DNA of 64,000 bases from Bacillota bacterium. GTDB lineage: Bacteria > Bacillota > Thermincolia > Thermincolales > UBA2595. The translations under genes were made by a program, and so were the position numbers. The stretch lies in assembly GCA_021847735.1 (NCBI GenBank), contig JAJZQD010000002.1, forward strand, positions 1 to 64,000, written 5' to 3'. Positions 53,011-60,950 of the stretch are shown here, in pieces. The notes under the pieces were generated by a model, which did not search any database, was not told the DNA's origin, and saw only the letters and a program-made list of their open reading frames with translations. Numbering within the stretch: position 1 is the stretch's first letter; each line of letters opens with the position of its first letter.

Positions 53011-54513
53011 ATGACATTACGCCGAAAAACATTGATTATTATCGGACTTACACTGGTTACCCTAATGAGTGTGCTTTTTGTAATGTTTCGCAACATAAGC
53101 GTAAAATACTATTTCCTTTATCTCCTGACAAGCGGCCTGGTGTTCGGCTTAGCAGTCTTGTATCTTTTGGAAAGAGTGGTGCTGTCCCGGCTTGGCCGCC
53201 TCAGTAAAGATGTTAACCGTATTGGCGCGGGGGGTAACCTTGCGGCCCGGGTTTCTATTGACGGCGATGATGAATTGTCCAGTCTGGCCGGTTCGGTAAA
53301 CGGAATGCTGGAGGCGTTGGAGCGGTCACAAAACGAGTTGTTTAACCAGAGGGCTGCAGAGGAGGAATTAAGGGAAAGTGAAGAGCGATTCCGCCGGCTG
53401 GTGGAAAATGCCCCTCTGGGCATCCTGGTTCTGGACCTTCAGGGGACAGTAACAACGGTTAACCCGAGTTTGGTTAAAATCTTGGGGCCGCCGTCGGAGG
53501 ATTGGGTCGTAGGTATCAATTTGCTTACTTATCCGCCCTTTTCTCAATCCGGAATATCTGACAGTATCCGCCAATGCATGGAAACCGGGGGGATAGTCAT
53601 TTCCGAGCATGCTTATATATCCAAAGGGGGTAATTTTGTTTGGCTGTGTATCTACCTGACCCCTTTGACACGTGCCGGGGGGAAAATTACCGGCGTACTC
53701 TTACTGGTTGAAGATATCACCGAGCGGAAAAAGGTTGAAGAGGAACTTCTGCAAAAGGATCGCAGGATACAGAAAGAACTACAATTGGCCAGCACTATCC
53801 AGTCAAGCCTGTTTCCCATTAATTTACCCCAAGTCCCGGGAGTTACCCTGGCGGCTACTGCGGTATCGGCGAATGAAGTCGGAGGGGACTATTGCGACTT
53901 ATTTATCAACAAATATAACAAGCTGGGGATTGCCATCGGGGATGTAATGGGCAAGGGGGTTCCGGCGGCGTTATTTGTTGCCATGACCTATGCCGTTGTG
54001 CGAAATTATGCTTTAGAAACCGAACAACCAAGCGCAGTGGTAAATCGTGTAAATAGAGTTCTGTTTCCGCAGTTGGAAAATGCCCAGCAGTTCATTACCT
54101 TTTTTTACGCCCTTTACGACCCGCAAACCAGGGAATTGGTCTATACCAATGCCGGTCATAATCCTCCTATAGTCTACCGGGCTTCCACGGGAGAATGTGA
54201 AACTCTTGAGGTGAGAGATTATTTCATGGGAGGTATTCTGGAGGCAGAGTACAGGGAAGGAAAAACTATGCTTAATCCGGGAGACGTGGTACTTTTTTAT
54301 ACGGACGGACTGAAGGAAGGCAGGAACAAAGAAAAAGAGCAGTTTGGTATGGAACGGATAACCCAAAATCTTAAAGTAAACCACATTTATGACCCGGCAA
54401 GTATTCAGGAAATAATCTCCTGTGAGTTTAGCGAGTTCCTGGACGGAGAACTGCCTTTGGATGACGTGACGATGATAGTCATCAAAATTGATGAAATCCG
54501 GGTTTTTGCTTAA
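53011..54513 (+). CDS. Membrane HAMP-PAS-PP2C (SpoIIE/RsbU-type) phosphatase
   Basis: 500 aa. Two membrane helices (about residues 7-27 and 33-52), a HAMP linker (about 52-105), a PAS domain (about 118-240), and a PP2C serine phosphatase (about 255-498) with NEVGGDYCD, GDVMGKGVPAALFVAM, NAGHNPPIVY, FYTDGLKEGR and LDDVTMIVI, so the metal-binding Asp residues are intact. Such phosphatases dephosphorylate STAS anti-anti-sigma proteins; a STAS gene lies at 59112. There is no extracellular sensor between the two helices, so the input is likely through PAS. GGGGGGAG precedes the ATG. Confidence 0.9.
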   Translation: MTLRRKTLIIIGLTLVTLMSVLFVMFRNISVKYYFLYLLTSGLVFGLAVLYLLERVVLSRLGRLSKDVNRIGAGGNLAARVSIDGDDELSSLAGSVNGMLEALERSQNELFNQRAAEEELRESEERFRRLVENAPLGILVLDLQGTVTTVNPSLVKILGPPSEDWVVGINLLTYPPFSQSGISDSIRQCMETGGIVISEHAYISKGGNFVWLCIYLTPLTRAGGKITGVLLLVEDITERKKVEEELLQKDRRIQKELQLASTIQSSLFPINLPQVPGVTLAATAVSANEVGGDYCDLFINKYNKLGIAIGDVMGKGVPAALFVAMTYAVVRNYALETEQPSAVVNRVNRVLFPQLENAQQFITFFYALYDPQTRELVYTNAGHNPPIVYRASTGECETLEVRDYFMGGILEAEYREGKTMLNPGDVVLFYTDGLKEGRNKEKEQFGMERITQNLKVNHIYDPASIQEIISCEFSEFLDGELPLDDVTMIVIKIDEIRVFA

Positions 54514-54548: not shown

Positions 54549-54555
54549 TGTCGAA
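54549..54555 (+). promoter_or_regulatory. Spo0A-box-like site upstream of the riboswitch
   Basis: TGTCGAA within ttgtcgaaaa, a good match to the extended 0A box. A possible -10 (taaaat, 54585-54590) has no recognisable -35 at proper distance; the box would lie near -45, a place from which Spo0A activates sigma-A promoters in Bacillus. Regulation is inference. Confidence 0.5.
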
Positions 54556-54612
54556 AACACTAGCTAAATGCAGATTGTGAAAAATAAAATAATGTCTCCG
54601 GGGAGACTGGAA

Positions 54613-54720
54613 AATGGTAAACTTTCCGAAAGGAAAGGGCACAAAACTACGGGTCTAAGGTAGTTTGGCGGACCTGACCAAGAGCCGCCGAACACTGCTA
54701 TGACAGCCGGGTTACCCAGA
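54613..54720 (+). ncRNA. Cyclic di-GMP-I riboswitch (GEMM-I)
   Basis: The sequence follows the GEMM-I plan. The closing helix P1 is ggtaa (54616-54620) with ttacc (54712-54716). Next is a short stem tttcc/ggaaa capped by a GAAA tetraloop (54623-54636), then the conserved core gggcacaaaactacgggt and ctaagg (54637-54660), a variable hairpin ggcgg/ccgcc (54667-54689), and finally acagccgggttacc. This matches the Vibrio Vc2 aptamer order of AAAC, GAAA loop, GCAAAGCC-like, GGxCTAA and GGGGTTACC. The P1 3' strand abuts a possible antiterminator (ccagaa 54716-54721 with ttctgg 54734-54739). Confidence 0.85.
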
Positions 54721-54727
54721 AAGGAAA

Positions 54728-54765
54728 AACCTGTTCTGGTTGAAATATGCCCGAACGGGTTTTTT
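54728..54765 (+). terminator. Riboswitch expression-platform terminator
   Basis: Stem aacctgttc (54728-54736) with gaacgggtt (54753-54761), one G-U pair, followed by a T-run (54760-54765). It overlaps the 3' arm of the proposed antiterminator, so the two are mutually exclusive. Ligand-stabilised P1 should favour the terminator, predicting reduced expression at high c-di-GMP. Confidence 0.8.
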
Positions 54766-54791
54766 AAACGTACACAAAGAAGGTGACGCCC

Positions 54792-56927
54792 TTGAGTAAA
54801 TATAACGTGAATTTGTTGGTTTTTGATGCCAGTATTTTCGTTTCTGGCTTTTTTCTCCTATTTCATTACCTGCCTTCACCGGATATTCAAAATTGGGTTC
54901 CCGTCATTTTGTTTTCGGCAGCAGTATTGTCTTTGGCTTTACTTAAGACCTGCCTTCCCTCCGAGGAATCATTTTCCTTTGAAAACGTCATGATTATCGC
55001 CTATGTCCTGACTTACGGCTTTAGTGGGACCTGGGTTGCGGCTATCGCATTCACGGGATATGCCTTACTGAAAAGAACATCCCTTTTGGAAGCTGTATTT
55101 TCTGTGAGCAGTTTCATTATCGCGGTCTGGGGTGCGGCAGCCATTTTTACCGCTACGGGCGGAGTTTTCGGTAATTTGAGTTTATCTGAGAATTATATAC
55201 CGTTATTGTGTTTTTTGTCATCGTACCTTCTCTTCGTTTTCGGGTCAAAGGCGGTACATAATTCCCTCCTTTTGGATAGACCTTTGGAAATGGTCAACCT
55301 GCTTAAAGATGAAAGCTCTGTCACACTGCTAGTGGTAATTGACGGAGTGGTTGCCACATTACTGTATCAAGGCGTCGGGATAGCCGGAATAATTATTGTT
55401 TTAATGCTTACAGCCGGAATCTTGAAAATACTCAGAATTTATTTTCATTCCGAACGAAAGTACGTAAAAACTGTGGAGACTTTTTTGACCGTCACAGAGA
55501 ATAAGATCCCGCATTTTCGCGGCCACTCGGAACGGGTTGCCAAATCTTGCCAGATGCTGCTCAACTGTATGCGGGTCACCAGAGAGGAGCGCGGTATCAT
55601 CGAATATGCCGCCTTACTTCACGATATAGGTAAGCTCGGAATGCCGGAAAAACTGCTTAGGATCCACAGTTACCTGACGAGCGAGGAGGTCCAGTGTCTA
55701 GAGGGCCATCCCGAGATTGGCAGAAAACTTGTTCAGCAGATTACAGGTTTGGATAAAGTAGCGGAGCTAATACACTGTCATCATGAAAAATACAACGGAG
55801 AAGGATATCCCCGGAAATTGGCAAAGGAAGAAATACCTTTCGGAGCCAGGGTAATTGCCGTTGCCGACATGTTTGACAACCTGGTTTATCGTGTCGGACT
55901 GCGGTTTCAACAAGCCTGTACAGAGCTTAAGAATATGGCCGGGTCGGACCTTGACCCCGAAATTGTGGAAGTATTTTTAAAGGTGATACTGGACAACAGC
56001 CAGGTTGCTGCTACCCATGAATCCGGCCGCATAACGGACCGCCTGGAGGATAAAACCAAAGATATAGTTGAACAGTTAAGGTATTACCTGGATAAGTCTT
56101 GGGTCCTTGGTACCCTGCACATGAGTTATATAGTTCTATATGAGAATAACGAAATTAAAAACCTTGGTACGGGGGTCATTCCCCACTCCATTAAAAACTA
56201 CCTGGCGGACTATGTCCAAAAGGGTCTGGATATTGGGACCTGCCACAAGGAGTTTATTATTGACGCGGTTTCTGCCAAAATATTTAATGCCTATTTTATG
56301 CCTGTTTCCACAGACTCCTGTTTAATCACGGTTTTTGACATGACGGAAGTTTTAAAAACCGAAAGAGACCGGGAAGAAGGGGAACTAAAAATTTATCGCG
56401 ATGTAATTTTGGCCGTAACCCAGGGTAAGTTACTCCTTACTTTTGGTGAAGAAATTAATAACTACATTGATGAAAGCTTAATCCACAGCGAAATGCGGTT
56501 GTATGAGCCCCAGGACGTGGCCAGGGCCAGGTCCATGGTCAAGGGTATTTTGGATACGGTGCCACTATCAGGCCAGCGAAAGTCGCAAATGATACTTTGT
56601 GTATCTGAAGCCGCAACAAACGTTATAAAACACGTGGGAGAGGGAAAAGTTGGGGTAAGTCTTTTGGACAATGCAGTGCGAATTATTATTCAGGACAACG
56701 GACCGGGAATTGATATTTCTCAGCTCCCCCAGGTGACCCTGAGAAAAGGTTATTCCACCAAGCTTTCCCTGGGGTTTGGGTTTACTATCATGCTGGATTT
56801 TCTGGATAGGCTAATTATGTCTACCAAAGAAGGAACTATTGTAGTATTGGAAATGGCTTTCAATCCGGAGAAGAAACCGGTTGAAACGCCGAATAGAGAA
56901 GAGGTGGCTCAAGGAGATGTCAGTTGA
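54792..56927 (+). CDS. Membrane HD-GYP / HATPase (RsbW-like) signalling protein
   Basis: 711 aa from TTG 54792, which follows GAAGGTGA at good spacing; GTG 54783 is an alternative. About six to seven N-terminal membrane helices (1-215). The HD-GYP domain (about 235-395) has His245, His277-Asp278 (HDIGKLG), HHEKYNGEGYP (GYP at 338-340) and ADMFDNL, so metal ligands look intact; such domains degrade c-di-GMP. A domain of unknown type follows (400-560). The C-terminus (570-700) is a GHKL ATPase of the RsbW/SpoIIAB type with CVSEAATNVIKH, DNGPGI and GYSTKLSLGFGFTIM. I know no standard protein with this exact order. It overlaps the next gene by 11 bases. Confidence 0.85.
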   Translation: MSKYNVNLLVFDASIFVSGFFLLFHYLPSPDIQNWVPVILFSAAVLSLALLKTCLPSEESFSFENVMIIAYVLTYGFSGTWVAAIAFTGYALLKRTSLLEAVFSVSSFIIAVWGAAAIFTATGGVFGNLSLSENYIPLLCFLSSYLLFVFGSKAVHNSLLLDRPLEMVNLLKDESSVTLLVVIDGVVATLLYQGVGIAGIIIVLMLTAGILKILRIYFHSERKYVKTVETFLTVTENKIPHFRGHSERVAKSCQMLLNCMRVTREERGIIEYAALLHDIGKLGMPEKLLRIHSYLTSEEVQCLEGHPEIGRKLVQQITGLDKVAELIHCHHEKYNGEGYPRKLAKEEIPFGARVIAVADMFDNLVYRVGLRFQQACTELKNMAGSDLDPEIVEVFLKVILDNSQVAATHESGRITDRLEDKTKDIVEQLRYYLDKSWVLGTLHMSYIVLYENNEIKNLGTGVIPHSIKNYLADYVQKGLDIGTCHKEFIIDAVSAKIFNAYFMPVSTDSCLITVFDMTEVLKTERDREEGELKIYRDVILAVTQGKLLLTFGEEINNYIDESLIHSEMRLYEPQDVARARSMVKGILDTVPLSGQRKSQMILCVSEAATNVIKHVGEGKVGVSLLDNAVRIIIQDNGPGIDISQLPQVTLRKGYSTKLSLGFGFTIMLDFLDRLIMSTKEGTIVVLEMAFNPEKKPVETPNREEVAQGDVS

Positions 56928-58977
56928 GGGATTCGTTATCACTGAAGGTAACACTGTACAGGAAGCGGTTAGCAAAGCGCTTAGGATGCTGCAGGTTAAA
57001 AAAGAGCAGACCACAATAGAAATCATCTCAGAAGGAAAACAGGGTTTCCTTGGGGTGGGCTCCAGGCTTGCCAAAGTTAAGGTTTCCATTAAAGAAGACG
57101 CCAAGGCCGAACTTGAACTGACTGACATATTGGTTGACCTACATATTAGGGATGAATCCCTGGCTGCGCAATATTCGCCTAAAGTAACCGACAAAATGAC
57201 AGGGGTGGCCGCAGTTGTCAACGGTAAAGTAGTTGTTACCGATCCTTCGGATTTGGGAAGTTACGCTATTTTAAAACCAGGCCGAAATATGAGGTTAATC
57301 ATCAACGGACAAGAGACTGTAGAAGAAACACCGGTTTCCGAAGGGGATATGATACAAGTAGAATTGGTCGATGAAAAGCCGGTTTCTTCGCTGGAGTTGA
57401 CTGTTGCAGATAATAAGCTGGAGGCTTTACTGAGACTGGTTAGCCAGCCGGGTGCCACATACAGGTTAATGGATCAGGCTGAAACAAATAAATTACTGTT
57501 GCAGATAGAGGTTGCAGAAATAATTGAATCACCTCCGGTTACGGTAGAGGATGTAATTAGGTTTTTACAGGAAAAGAATGTCGTAAAAGGTATACTAAAT
57601 GCAGGAATTCAACAGGTGTTGGAGAATCAAAATGGCAAGGAAGGGTTTCCAGTAGCCCGGGGCTTAAAACCAGAGGACGGTATCGATGCATATATTAGGC
57701 TCCCCTTCCTGGATGACGCGAAAGAAGACGAAGAAGAACCGTTATTTAACCACCATCAGATGGTGTCTGTTAGTCCGGGTGAGGTCGTTGCCATCAAAGT
57801 GCCTAAACAAATAGGACGCGACGGCTGGGCCGTTACCGGGGAGCCAATTCCGGCAGCTTTGCCTAAAGATTGTGAAATGTGCATTAAGAGCGGATGTGAG
57901 TTCACGGGGGATGGGGAAATGGTAGTGGCAACAATTGCCGGCCGGCCCGGGACAGCGAATATCGGCAACAAGACTTTTGTTCATGTGGACCCGGTTTATG
58001 AAGTCAAGGATGTTGACCAGACCATCGGAAACATAAAATTTGCCGGAGACGTCCTGGTAAGGGGAAGTGTCCGGGATGGATACAAGATTGAAGCTGACGG
58101 AAATATTGAGGTATTTGGTGATGTCACCAGGGCTGCAATAACCGCCGGGGCCAGTGTTACTATTCACCAACAAGCCCTTGGGAGCATCATTACGGCAGGG
58201 GGAAGGGCCGCTTTATACTCTTCGATTTTGCCCGGTTTAAAGGAAACGGGGGAGATGTTGAATAATGTGCGCGCGGTGGCAGAGCAGCTTAAAAGTGTTC
58301 CCGCTTTTAAGACATCTGACCTGCGGGCCAAGGGTGACGGCCCGTTAATTCAACTGCTGCTCGATTCAAAATTCAATGTCCTGCCGCAAACAGTCTCGGA
58401 ATTGTCCGAAACAATGCTGGGCTCCAAGCAAACAGTTCATGAACAGGTATTGGATTGTGTCAATCTTTTACAGAAGGATTTATGCGGGCTGGGATCGGTA
58501 AATATAGAAAGTGTTGATTATCTCCAAAGGCTAAAAGAATGTGTAGACCTGGTTGTCGGTCTGATTAACGATAGTATAAGAAAAGAAGACTGCATTAAGG
58601 TTAAATATGTTCAAAACTGTACTCTCCAATCAAGCGGAGATGTAATAATTGAAGGCCAGGGATGCTACATATCTACCGTTACGGCCGGAGGAGAAGTGAT
58701 TGTCTCAGGAAATCCCGGGGTTGCCCGGGGCGTAAAAGTAGTCTCCAACGGTAACGTAACTGTAAAAGAACTTGGTTCGGATTTTGACACCCAGACTTCT
58801 GTGGCGGTTAACTGTAACAGCAAGGTTTCGGCAGGGTTAATACATCCCAATGTCACAGTAAAGGTAGGCGGGGATAAATTCAGGGTCGATAATCTGTACA
58901 AGAACTTTGACGCCTATATTAACTACGAAGGCCAACTTGTTGTTGACAAGCTATTGACCGGCGAAAAGCGCCAGTGA
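56917..58977 (+). CDS. Jag_N-FapA (DUF342) fusion protein
   Basis: 686 aa from ATG 56917; the open frame extends upstream, but this ATG has GAGGTGG nine bases before it. The first 50 residues form a Jag_N domain (TVQEAVSKALRMLQVKKEQT, then EGKQGFLGVGSRLAKVKV). FapA-type domains follow (GRDGWAVTGEPIPAALPKD, NIKFAGDVLVRGSVRDGYKI), a helical region (about 450-560), and a second beta-helix stretch to the end. It is less similar to the other two FapA proteins than they are to each other. Its stop codon is supplied by repeat copy 2, so the original end may have differed. Confidence 0.85.
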   Translation: MSVEGFVITEGNTVQEAVSKALRMLQVKKEQTTIEIISEGKQGFLGVGSRLAKVKVSIKEDAKAELELTDILVDLHIRDESLAAQYSPKVTDKMTGVAAVVNGKVVVTDPSDLGSYAILKPGRNMRLIINGQETVEETPVSEGDMIQVELVDEKPVSSLELTVADNKLEALLRLVSQPGATYRLMDQAETNKLLLQIEVAEIIESPPVTVEDVIRFLQEKNVVKGILNAGIQQVLENQNGKEGFPVARGLKPEDGIDAYIRLPFLDDAKEDEEEPLFNHHQMVSVSPGEVVAIKVPKQIGRDGWAVTGEPIPAALPKDCEMCIKSGCEFTGDGEMVVATIAGRPGTANIGNKTFVHVDPVYEVKDVDQTIGNIKFAGDVLVRGSVRDGYKIEADGNIEVFGDVTRAAITAGASVTIHQQALGSIITAGGRAALYSSILPGLKETGEMLNNVRAVAEQLKSVPAFKTSDLRAKGDGPLIQLLLDSKFNVLPQTVSELSETMLGSKQTVHEQVLDCVNLLQKDLCGLGSVNIESVDYLQRLKECVDLVVGLINDSIRKEDCIKVKYVQNCTLQSSGDVIIEGQGCYISTVTAGGEVIVSGNPGVARGVKVVSNGNVTVKELGSDFDTQTSVAVNCNSKVSAGLIHPNVTVKVGGDKFRVDNLYKNFDAYINYEGQLVVDKLLTGEKRQ

Positions 58978-59111: not shown

Positions 59112-59423
59112 ATGTTAGACGTGCAAGTTTCAACTGACGGCAAAAACAAAATCTTGAGACTGGTTGGAGAACTGGACATTGCCACTGTTGACAGGTTTAA
59201 GAAAAGTGTGGATGAAGCCCGTGAGGATGTTAGTGGCATGATTTTGGACATGGCTAAATTGGGTTTCGTTGATTCTACCGGGGTTGGCGGACTATTGAAT
59301 GTGGTAAAGAGTCTCAGGAAAGACAGTGTCGAAGTTAAAGTATGCAATGTTTCGGCTGAGGTATACGAAGTTTTTGACCTCTTGGGGCTGCCCATGCTGT
59401 TGGGTAAAGAAATTTTTGAATAA
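59112..59423 (+). CDS. STAS-domain anti-anti-sigma factor-like protein
   Basis: 103 aa, a single STAS domain of the SpoIIAA/RsbV type: LRLVGELDIATVDRFKKSVD, then MILDMAKLGFVDSTGVGGLL with the phosphorylatable Ser55 in the DST motif. Such proteins are phosphorylated by RsbW-type kinases and dephosphorylated by PP2C phosphatases, which are encoded upstream at 54792 and 53011. AGAGGGTGG precedes the ATG. The sigma factor or other target is not in the cassette. Confidence 0.92.
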   Translation: MLDVQVSTDGKNKILRLVGELDIATVDRFKKSVDEAREDVSGMILDMAKLGFVDSTGVGGLLNVVKSLRKDSVEVKVCNVSAEVYEVFDLLGLPMLLGKEIFE

Positions 59424-59462
59424 TGTTTGTGTATTTTGACAGCCATTTAGGGGGTGGACAAA

Positions 59463-60902
59463 ATGGCTCCAGGAGATTTTATCGATGAGTTATTGGCCAA
59501 AAATCAACCTGTAAATGTTGAAATAAGTCGAAATAAGATGGAAGCCTATCTAAAGGTCTACTCACTGGGAGGAGGCCAACAAATTACCGGGCAGGATATC
59601 GAAGCCGCTTTAAGAGAAAAGGGCGTGATTTATGGTGTGCTGGAAGAAATTGTTGATAAGGCCGTCAGCCTACAGCATTTCAGCGAACCCATCACTGTTG
59701 CCAGGGGTTCCGAGCCTATCCCCGGAGAGGATTCAAAGATTGATTTTAAGTTTAATACTGATGTAGTAATAGGAAAACCGATTGAAATGATGGATGGCCG
59801 GGTGGATTTTTACAATCTCAACCTTATTCAGAATGTGGAGATTGGGGAGGTACTCGCGGTTAAAACACCGGCTTCTAAAGGAACCCCGGGTTACACGGTT
59901 ACCGGCGAAGAGGTTCCGGCCAAACCTGGAAAAGATTTTCTTTTAAAGCCTGGTAAAAATGTACAAATGGTTGCAGGTGATAATATAGGTTATAAGCCCA
60001 GCGCCATAGTTGCCGTGTCGGCCGCACAAGGCCGCGTAATGCTTACCGGTAACAAAATCACCGTTTCCACAGTCTATGAAGTTGACGGAGATGTGGATTT
60101 CAACACGGGAAATATTGAATTTAACGGGAGCGTAATAATCAAAGGGAGTATCAGGGAAGGTTTTAAAGTTGTGGCGAATGGCGATGTGGTTATCATGAAC
60201 ACTATATCTGACGGGATAGTTGAGTGTACCGGGAATGTTAAAGTCAAAAGCGGCATTGTCGGCAGAAGCAAAACGAGGATAAAAGCGGGAGAAAGTGTTT
60301 TCGCCAAGTTTATAGAAAACTCCACCGTTGAGGCTGCTGAAGATATTGTGGTCAGTGAAGCCATCATGCACAGCAGGGTAAGCGCCGGAAAATCCGTGGT
60401 AGTCGGTGGCAAGGGTGTTGTAGTCGGAGGCTTGATCAGGGCCGGTGAAGAAATAAAATGTAAAATAGTGGGTTCACCCCTGGCAACTGCAACTGAGTTG
60501 GAGGCCGGGATAAATCCTGTGCTGCGTAGGGAATATTCCAAGCTCATAAAGGAAAAGGAGTCAAAGGAAACTGACCACGATAAAGCTGATAAAGCCATAA
60601 AACTCTTAAAGCGCATGCAGTATACCCAAGGGGAGATGCACCCGGATAAGCGTGCCCTTCTTATACAGGTTACTAAAGTACAGGTTGCCCTTACCAAGGA
60701 TTTAGAGGCACTAAACGAGTCCATAAAGAACATCGAATTTCAGATGGTACAATCTAACCGCGGCCGCATAACGGTGCAGGGAACAATCTATCCGGGAGTG
60801 AAGGTAACCATCGGATCGTCTTCAGTACAAATCCACGACCCTTACCCATTTGTCTGCTTTACAAAACACAATGGAGAAATAAAGATTTCCCCGTATAAAT
60901 AA
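59463..60902 (+). CDS. FapA-family (DUF342) protein, cassette paralogue
   Basis: 479 aa from ATG 59463 (AGGGGGTGG upstream; GTG 59454 is part of the ribosome binding site). It matches the FapA protein at 22184 almost throughout, for example VDFNTGNIEFNGSVIIKGSI and IMHSRVSAGKSVVVGGKGV, but lacks its first 100 or so residues. The C-terminal coiled coil (about residues 355-425) and cap are kept. Last gene of the cassette, followed by a terminator. Function unknown; proximity to the STAS gene suggests a role in its pathway. Confidence 0.88.
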   Translation: MAPGDFIDELLAKNQPVNVEISRNKMEAYLKVYSLGGGQQITGQDIEAALREKGVIYGVLEEIVDKAVSLQHFSEPITVARGSEPIPGEDSKIDFKFNTDVVIGKPIEMMDGRVDFYNLNLIQNVEIGEVLAVKTPASKGTPGYTVTGEEVPAKPGKDFLLKPGKNVQMVAGDNIGYKPSAIVAVSAAQGRVMLTGNKITVSTVYEVDGDVDFNTGNIEFNGSVIIKGSIREGFKVVANGDVVIMNTISDGIVECTGNVKVKSGIVGRSKTRIKAGESVFAKFIENSTVEAAEDIVVSEAIMHSRVSAGKSVVVGGKGVVVGGLIRAGEEIKCKIVGSPLATATELEAGINPVLRREYSKLIKEKESKETDHDKADKAIKLLKRMQYTQGEMHPDKRALLIQVTKVQVALTKDLEALNESIKNIEFQMVQSNRGRITVQGTIYPGVKVTIGSSSVQIHDPYPFVCFTKHNGEIKISPYK

Positions 60903-60916
60903 GATGTAATAATGAT

Positions 60917-60950
60917 GGGGCTGTCCGAAAGGGGCAGTCTCTTTACTTTT
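60917..60950 (+). terminator. Terminator after the signalling cassette
   Basis: Stem ggctgtcc (60919-60926), GAAA loop, ggggcagtc (60931-60939) with two G-U pairs and one bulged G, followed by a T-rich tail (tctttactttt). Confidence 0.6.

Follow-up and report, generated by a model that had tools for sequence, protein, structure and literature searches.

Among the main decision systems of bacteria are partner switches of the RsbW/RsbV/RsbU type and the second messenger c-di-GMP; to our knowledge, few direct links between the two exist. In C. difficile, the flgB operon is preceded by a c-di-GMP-I riboswitch that acts as an OFF switch. At the protein level, the E. coli phosphodiesterase PdeL is repressed by high c-di-GMP, and the resulting positive feedback leads to steep switching; HD-GYP proteins have been proposed as possible players in circuits of this type (PMC5052742). 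According to its abstract, work on the RmdB/RsiG-sigmaWhiG system of Streptomyces links a c-di-GMP phosphodiesterase to anti-sigma control (PMC13232838). The fapA gene, which is also relevant here, sits with flagellar and sigma28 genes in other bacteria (PMC11607428).

The window analyzed here, by which we mean the whole 64-kb stretch of DNA, contains a locus in which several of these elements are combined. As a whole, the locus is probably explained by a canonical c-di-GMP-I OFF riboswitch that heads an HD-GYP/partner-switch operon with positive feedback. An initial annotation of the sequence had described the leader and the first gene downstream. It overlooked the partner-switching operon with its FapA, STAS, and adjacent SpoIIE genes, as well as the conservation of the riboswitch association across many families. 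The following features were assigned:

53011-54513, + strand: HAMP-PAS-SpoIIE (PP2C-type) phosphatase, directly upstream of the leader on the same strand
54607-54720, + strand: c-di-GMP-I (GEMM-I) riboswitch aptamer (Rfam covariance models and aptamer alignment)
54607-54610, + strand: 5' strand of P1, CUGG, pairing with CCAG at 54716-54719
54716-54721, + strand: 5' strand of the antiterminator, CCAGAA, overlapping the 3' strand of P1 and pairing with UUCUGG at 54734-54739
54728-54765, + strand: intrinsic terminator hairpin, then a run of U
54734-54739, + strand: 3' strand of the antiterminator, UUCUGG, within the 5' arm of the terminator
54783-56927, + strand: head-gene protein with a membrane part, HD-GYP, PAS-like, and HATPase_c_2 (RsbW/SpoIIAB-like) domains (Pfam, residues, and model)
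56881-58977, + strand: Jag_N-FapA (DUF342) protein (Pfam), with a likely start inside the frame at about 56917
59112-59423, + strand: STAS protein of the anti-sigma-factor-antagonist type, with a DSTG motif (predicted phospho-serine site)
59454-60902, + strand: second FapA protein

In an Rfam search of the whole 64-kb window, the single match above any gathering score was RF03167 (c-di-GMP-I-GGC) at 54607-54720 on the + strand, with 63.6 bits and an E-value of 1.1e-12. In a genome-wide search, the same aptamer was scored by RF01051 at 72.7 bits (E 2.0e-14) against a gathering cut-off of 35 bits; this is the covariance-model check that the initial annotation had called for. The complete GEMM-I aptamer reported there at 54613-54720 is therefore present, but its start lies at 54607, as the 5' strand of P1 (54607-54610) had been missed. 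Alignments place the key residues G20, A47, and C92 at 54616, 54643, and 54715. We take these to be the ligand contacts of the canonical c-di-GMP set, and c-di-GMP is the predicted ligand. A47 and C92 are invariant among 25 aligned aptamers, and G20 is found in all but two. The window aptamer also has a long extra hairpin within P3, at about 54656-54701.

Other GEMM-I aptamers occur in the same genome. An A at position 20 marks the cGAMP-type (GEMM-Ib) aptamers of Geobacter. This residue is found in a tandem GEMM-I pair before a transglutaminase-like gene (L009:1501-1580 and L011:1501-1582; C89:2680-2927), and the remaining aligned aptamers of the genome carry G there. Tandem c-di-GMP-I riboswitches before transglutaminases have been reported in Bacillota (PMC12452182). 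Further aptamers precede an HD-GYP-like gene (L008; C16:34437-34519) and, as judged by eye, an EAL/HDOD-type gene (L003; C50:14745-14829), so the window is not the only place in this genome where c-di-GMP enzymes come under a riboswitch.

The expression platform of the window leader is built from overlapping helices. P1 (CUGG:CCAG) and the antiterminator (CCAGAA:UUCUGG) both use 54716-54719, while 54734-54739 is common to the antiterminator and the terminator; through these shared strands, the antiterminator is mutually exclusive with the other two. The coordinates given previously for the antiterminator and terminator are correct, and the mutual exclusivity is borne out by the shared strands. 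With the aptamer core fixed, the antiterminator beats P1 by 4.1 to 2.5 kcal/mol for transcript ends at 54739-54754, and P1 with the terminator beats the antiterminator by 8.8 kcal/mol at transcript end 54765. As the minimum-energy structure of the full-length leader contains the terminator, read-through depends on kinetics. The energy profile predicts a kinetic transcriptional OFF switch, and the layout fits one, with the terminator lying beyond the aptamer and competing with an antiterminator for which P1 supplies a strand.

Taken on its own, the 6-bp antiterminator complementarity of the window is of only modest significance (shuffle p 0.027; 0.063 by duplex energy). It gains weight because homologous loci likewise pair the aptamer 3' strand with the terminator 5' arm. 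In 18 of the 21 leaders compared, the conserved 3' strand of the aptamer, GG(C/U)UGCC, forms a duplex of 7-16 bp with the 5' arm of a hairpin further downstream, which in most cases has a U-rich tail; the duplex has a shuffle p of at most 0.02 in about 16 module leaders. The pairing was not seen in the remaining three leaders of this comparison (L126, L150:6373, L151). The window leader serves the same purpose with a different sequence. The leader most likely shuts off transcription at high c-di-GMP; the sign predicted at the outset, termination with c-di-GMP bound, is backed both by the energetics and by homologous operons, whose leaders follow the same scheme.

The start of the head gene is more likely TTG 54792, which is preceded by the ribosome site AAAGAAGGTGA, because GTG 54783 falls inside the ribosome-binding sequence. 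Pfam recovers the two domains previously attributed to its product, HD_5 with 119.5 bits (E 1.7e-34) and HATPase_c_2 with 39 bits against a cut-off of 27.4. The GHKL ATPase motifs N, G1, and G2 are present, and E..TN..KH, DxGxGI, and GxGF are invariant in the kinase alignment. SpoIIAB and RsbW are the NCBIfam relatives of this ATPase, which scores far below the cut-offs of both equivalogs. In the HD-GYP domain, the residues checked for metal binding and family signature (H, HD, K, H, HH, GYP, R, D) are all intact, and the HD...HHE..GxGYP motif of HD-GYP phosphodiesterases is present together with the metal residues; phosphodiesterase activity is hence predicted. Nearly all HD-GYP proteins that occupy the head position in the family likewise retain the metal-binding residues. 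An AlphaFold model of the whole protein is of low confidence (mean pLDDT 60) and was left out of the fold comparisons; its secondary structure agrees with the domain layout.

On the basis of their domains, the window genes (HD-GYP-HATPase, FapA, STAS, and adjacent SpoIIE) are predicted to be parts of a partner-switching module. The SpoIIE phosphatase upstream of the leader is a probable partner of the module that lies outside riboswitch control. A terminator-like hairpin (60917-60941) follows the second FapA gene.

To locate the module elsewhere, a profile was built from the C-terminal 298 positions of the kinase in 15 sequences, five of which come from riboswitch-bearing loci, a mild bias. 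It matches 41 of the 399 genomes of the phylum, and the recurring gene order around the matches is (HD-GYP)-HATPase-STAS-SpoIIE-STAS-FapA; FapA is a constant partner of the module. Kinases that are not fused to HD-GYP mostly start with a CxxC...CxxC motif and a beta-rich domain, for which Pfam gave no match. The structure predicted for this N-terminal domain has a pLDDT of 81, and its top Foldseek matches in the PDB are almost all PilZ domains (those of BcsA, PA0012, Alg44, YcgR, and MrkH), with probabilities of up to 1.0, but a best E-value of only 2.2e-3 and a TM of 0.46. In an alignment of 16 sequences, the PilZ ligand motifs RxxxR and [DN]xSxxG are only partially resembled, with no clear RxxxR. 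A PilZ-like fold in most non-fused kinases is therefore only suggested by the modelled structure, as the classical ligand motifs are incomplete.

GEMM-I aptamers at module loci were located with a covariance model derived from 25 aptamers. Clusters were defined as containing at least three module genes, and aptamers were counted if they lay on the same strand, either inside the cluster or upstream within 1.5 kb. By this definition, a c-di-GMP-I riboswitch accompanies 28 of 48 clusters, which represent 13 of 20 families. In 25 clusters, including that of the window, no more than 500 nt separate the aptamer from the head gene, with ten supplied by a single family (f14); about 0.04 would be expected by chance, given that the carriers counted have on average 3.3 GEMM-I aptamers per Mb. 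The association has P < 1e-50 when relatedness is ignored and, counted by family (12 of 20), is still below 1e-20. In the loci examined, aptamers from independent families were confirmed with Rfam. Named carriers of the module with a nearby aptamer include Thermanaeromonas sp. MAG, Desulfallas sp. Bu1-1, Brevibacillus migulae, and a Clostridia MAG.

The riboswitch is not obligatory for the operon. L065, which has the full-length protein most similar to that of the window (59 % identity), contains an operon of this type with no riboswitch nearby. In total, 20 of the 48 clusters have no riboswitch nearby, among them L065 and the loci with the nearest synteny (L066-L068), which indicates that the element has been gained and lost. 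At the matching locus of three genomes from the same family as that of the window (G005, G007, G008), the kinase has neither an HD-GYP nor a PilZ-like domain and no riboswitch was found. A conserved sigma factor or motility operon as common neighbor was considered and rejected, as the flanking reading frames of eight loci, inspected by eye, show no shared neighbor. At one riboswitch-headed module, transposase-like reading frames split the kinase and STAS genes (L130:9460-10729), a natural disruption. No description of the riboswitch-module association was found in the papers searched; most subscription journals were outside this search, and absence from the literature is not proven. The recurrence of the association in at least a dozen families points to a decision module for 'low c-di-GMP' that is widespread and reinforces itself.

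Three other explanations of the locus were weighed. The RNA could be a GEMM-I variant for another ligand, either of the c-di-GMP-I-GGC class or of the cGAMP type (GEMM-Ib), given that RF03167 ranks first by E-value for the window and several module leaders. The name 'GGC' refers to the variant-defining residue, G at position 47 in the model consensus. However, the window aptamer has A at this site (model position 37), the residue that is invariant in the 25-sequence alignment, its bit score is higher with RF01051, and position 20 is G rather than the A expected of cGAMP-type aptamers. Both specificities were rejected on these two residues, and a different ligand is very improbable. The Rfam label is nominal for the window aptamer, since its three contact residues form the canonical set, and on module leaders in general 'GGC' should not be taken as a predicted change of specificity. 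RF03167 also beats RF01051 by E-value on A47 aptamers at L069, L070, L110, L120, and L150, so the GGC class may be overrepresented in automatic annotations. It is somewhat less improbable, though still quite unlikely, that the element is an ordinary homeostatic or ON switch through which c-di-GMP raises expression of the phosphodiesterase operon. For an enzyme that degrades the messenger, a textbook circuit would have negative feedback, and some other GEMM-I members are ON switches. Here, however, the competing helix uses the P1 strand, the 5' arm of the terminator is not part of the aptamer and so cannot be blocked directly by the ligand, and homologous leaders repeat the same layout.

The remaining alternative concerns the protein. 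As the initial annotation had argued from the OFF sign, the HD-GYP domain might mainly signal, acting as a c-di-GMP-responsive regulator of the fused kinase with no significant catalytic role. In non-fused relatives, the kinase does carry a predicted PilZ-like domain, which is non-catalytic, in the corresponding position, and some distant relatives have a second HD-GYP in the operon that lacks the HDxGK lysine and has its last aspartate replaced by A (L134:4087-5256, L136:9267-10340, L139:2393-3475, L140:2910-4079, and L142:6655-7818). Judged from these residues, the second copies are likely receptor-only proteins beside an intact one. In contrast, the window HD-GYP and nearly all of those in head position keep their metal-binding residues, which disfavors a degenerate, signal-only domain in the window and leaves the earlier argument unsupported. 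Nor is an inference from sign against catalysis needed, because PdeL shows that an active phosphodiesterase repressed by c-di-GMP is a known type of circuit; by this analogy, OFF control of the phosphodiesterase would be coherent as positive feedback. A regulator without catalysis is thus unlikely, although it is the least improbable of the three alternatives.

Under the preferred explanation, an OFF riboswitch before an active phosphodiesterase operon, the 3' strand of P1 and two adjacent A's (54716-54721) would pair with the emerging 5' arm of the terminator in the ligand-free RNA, and RNA polymerase would read through. Bound c-di-GMP would hold P1, the terminator would form, and the operon would be off. 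Since low c-di-GMP would thereby raise the enzyme that lowers it further, the circuit would feed back positively, and the kinase/STAS/phosphatase switch would be made in the same state. The kinase, which would phosphorylate the STAS protein, would be coupled to c-di-GMP through its fused HD-GYP domain here and perhaps through the PilZ-like domain in most relatives. FapA may be the output, possibly acting on motility or the cell surface. More tentatively, and with odds slightly against it, these parts (riboswitch, HD-GYP, kinase with HD-GYP or PilZ-like domain, STAS, SpoIIE, and FapA) may constitute a widely distributed bistable c-di-GMP module of Bacillota that commits cells to a low-c-di-GMP state via a FapA output. 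If so, the same messenger would be read at both the RNA level and the protein level. By placing a c-di-GMP-degrading enzyme and a kinase with a c-di-GMP-related domain behind the same c-di-GMP riboswitch, a conserved operon of this kind would allow bistable second-messenger control to be studied in a compact system, and it would offer a first way into FapA/DUF342 proteins that are not encoded in flagellar operons. Relatives exist in named organisms, for example Desulfallas and Brevibacillus.

As described in their abstracts, the Streptomyces RmdB/RsiG-sigmaWhiG (PMC13232838) and P. aeruginosa SiaABCD (PMC8457831) systems share with this module a tie between c-di-GMP metabolism and anti-sigma or partner-switch control; they have other protein architectures, belong to different phyla, and no riboswitch is mentioned in these abstracts. 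In common with RsbU/RsbV/RsbW and SpoIIE/SpoIIAA/SpoIIAB, a HATPase kinase, a STAS antagonist, and a PP2C phosphatase are encoded together. The module differs from those systems in that its kinase is fused to an HD-GYP or predicted PilZ-like domain, FapA is part of the operon, and no sigma factor was recognized by eye in the flanks of the eight loci. The window leader has the same aptamer, key residues, and intrinsic terminator as known c-di-GMP-I riboswitches such as the one before the flgB operon of C. difficile, and the OFF sign is predicted here. Whereas those switches govern flagellar or adhesin structural genes, the window leader precedes a phosphodiesterase/partner-switch/FapA operon. 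With the trigger phosphodiesterase PdeL, it would share the repression by c-di-GMP of the synthesis of its degrading enzyme, and hence positive feedback; the window locus pairs riboswitch control at the RNA level with an HD-GYP protein, in contrast to PdeL, which pairs control at the protein level with an EAL enzyme.
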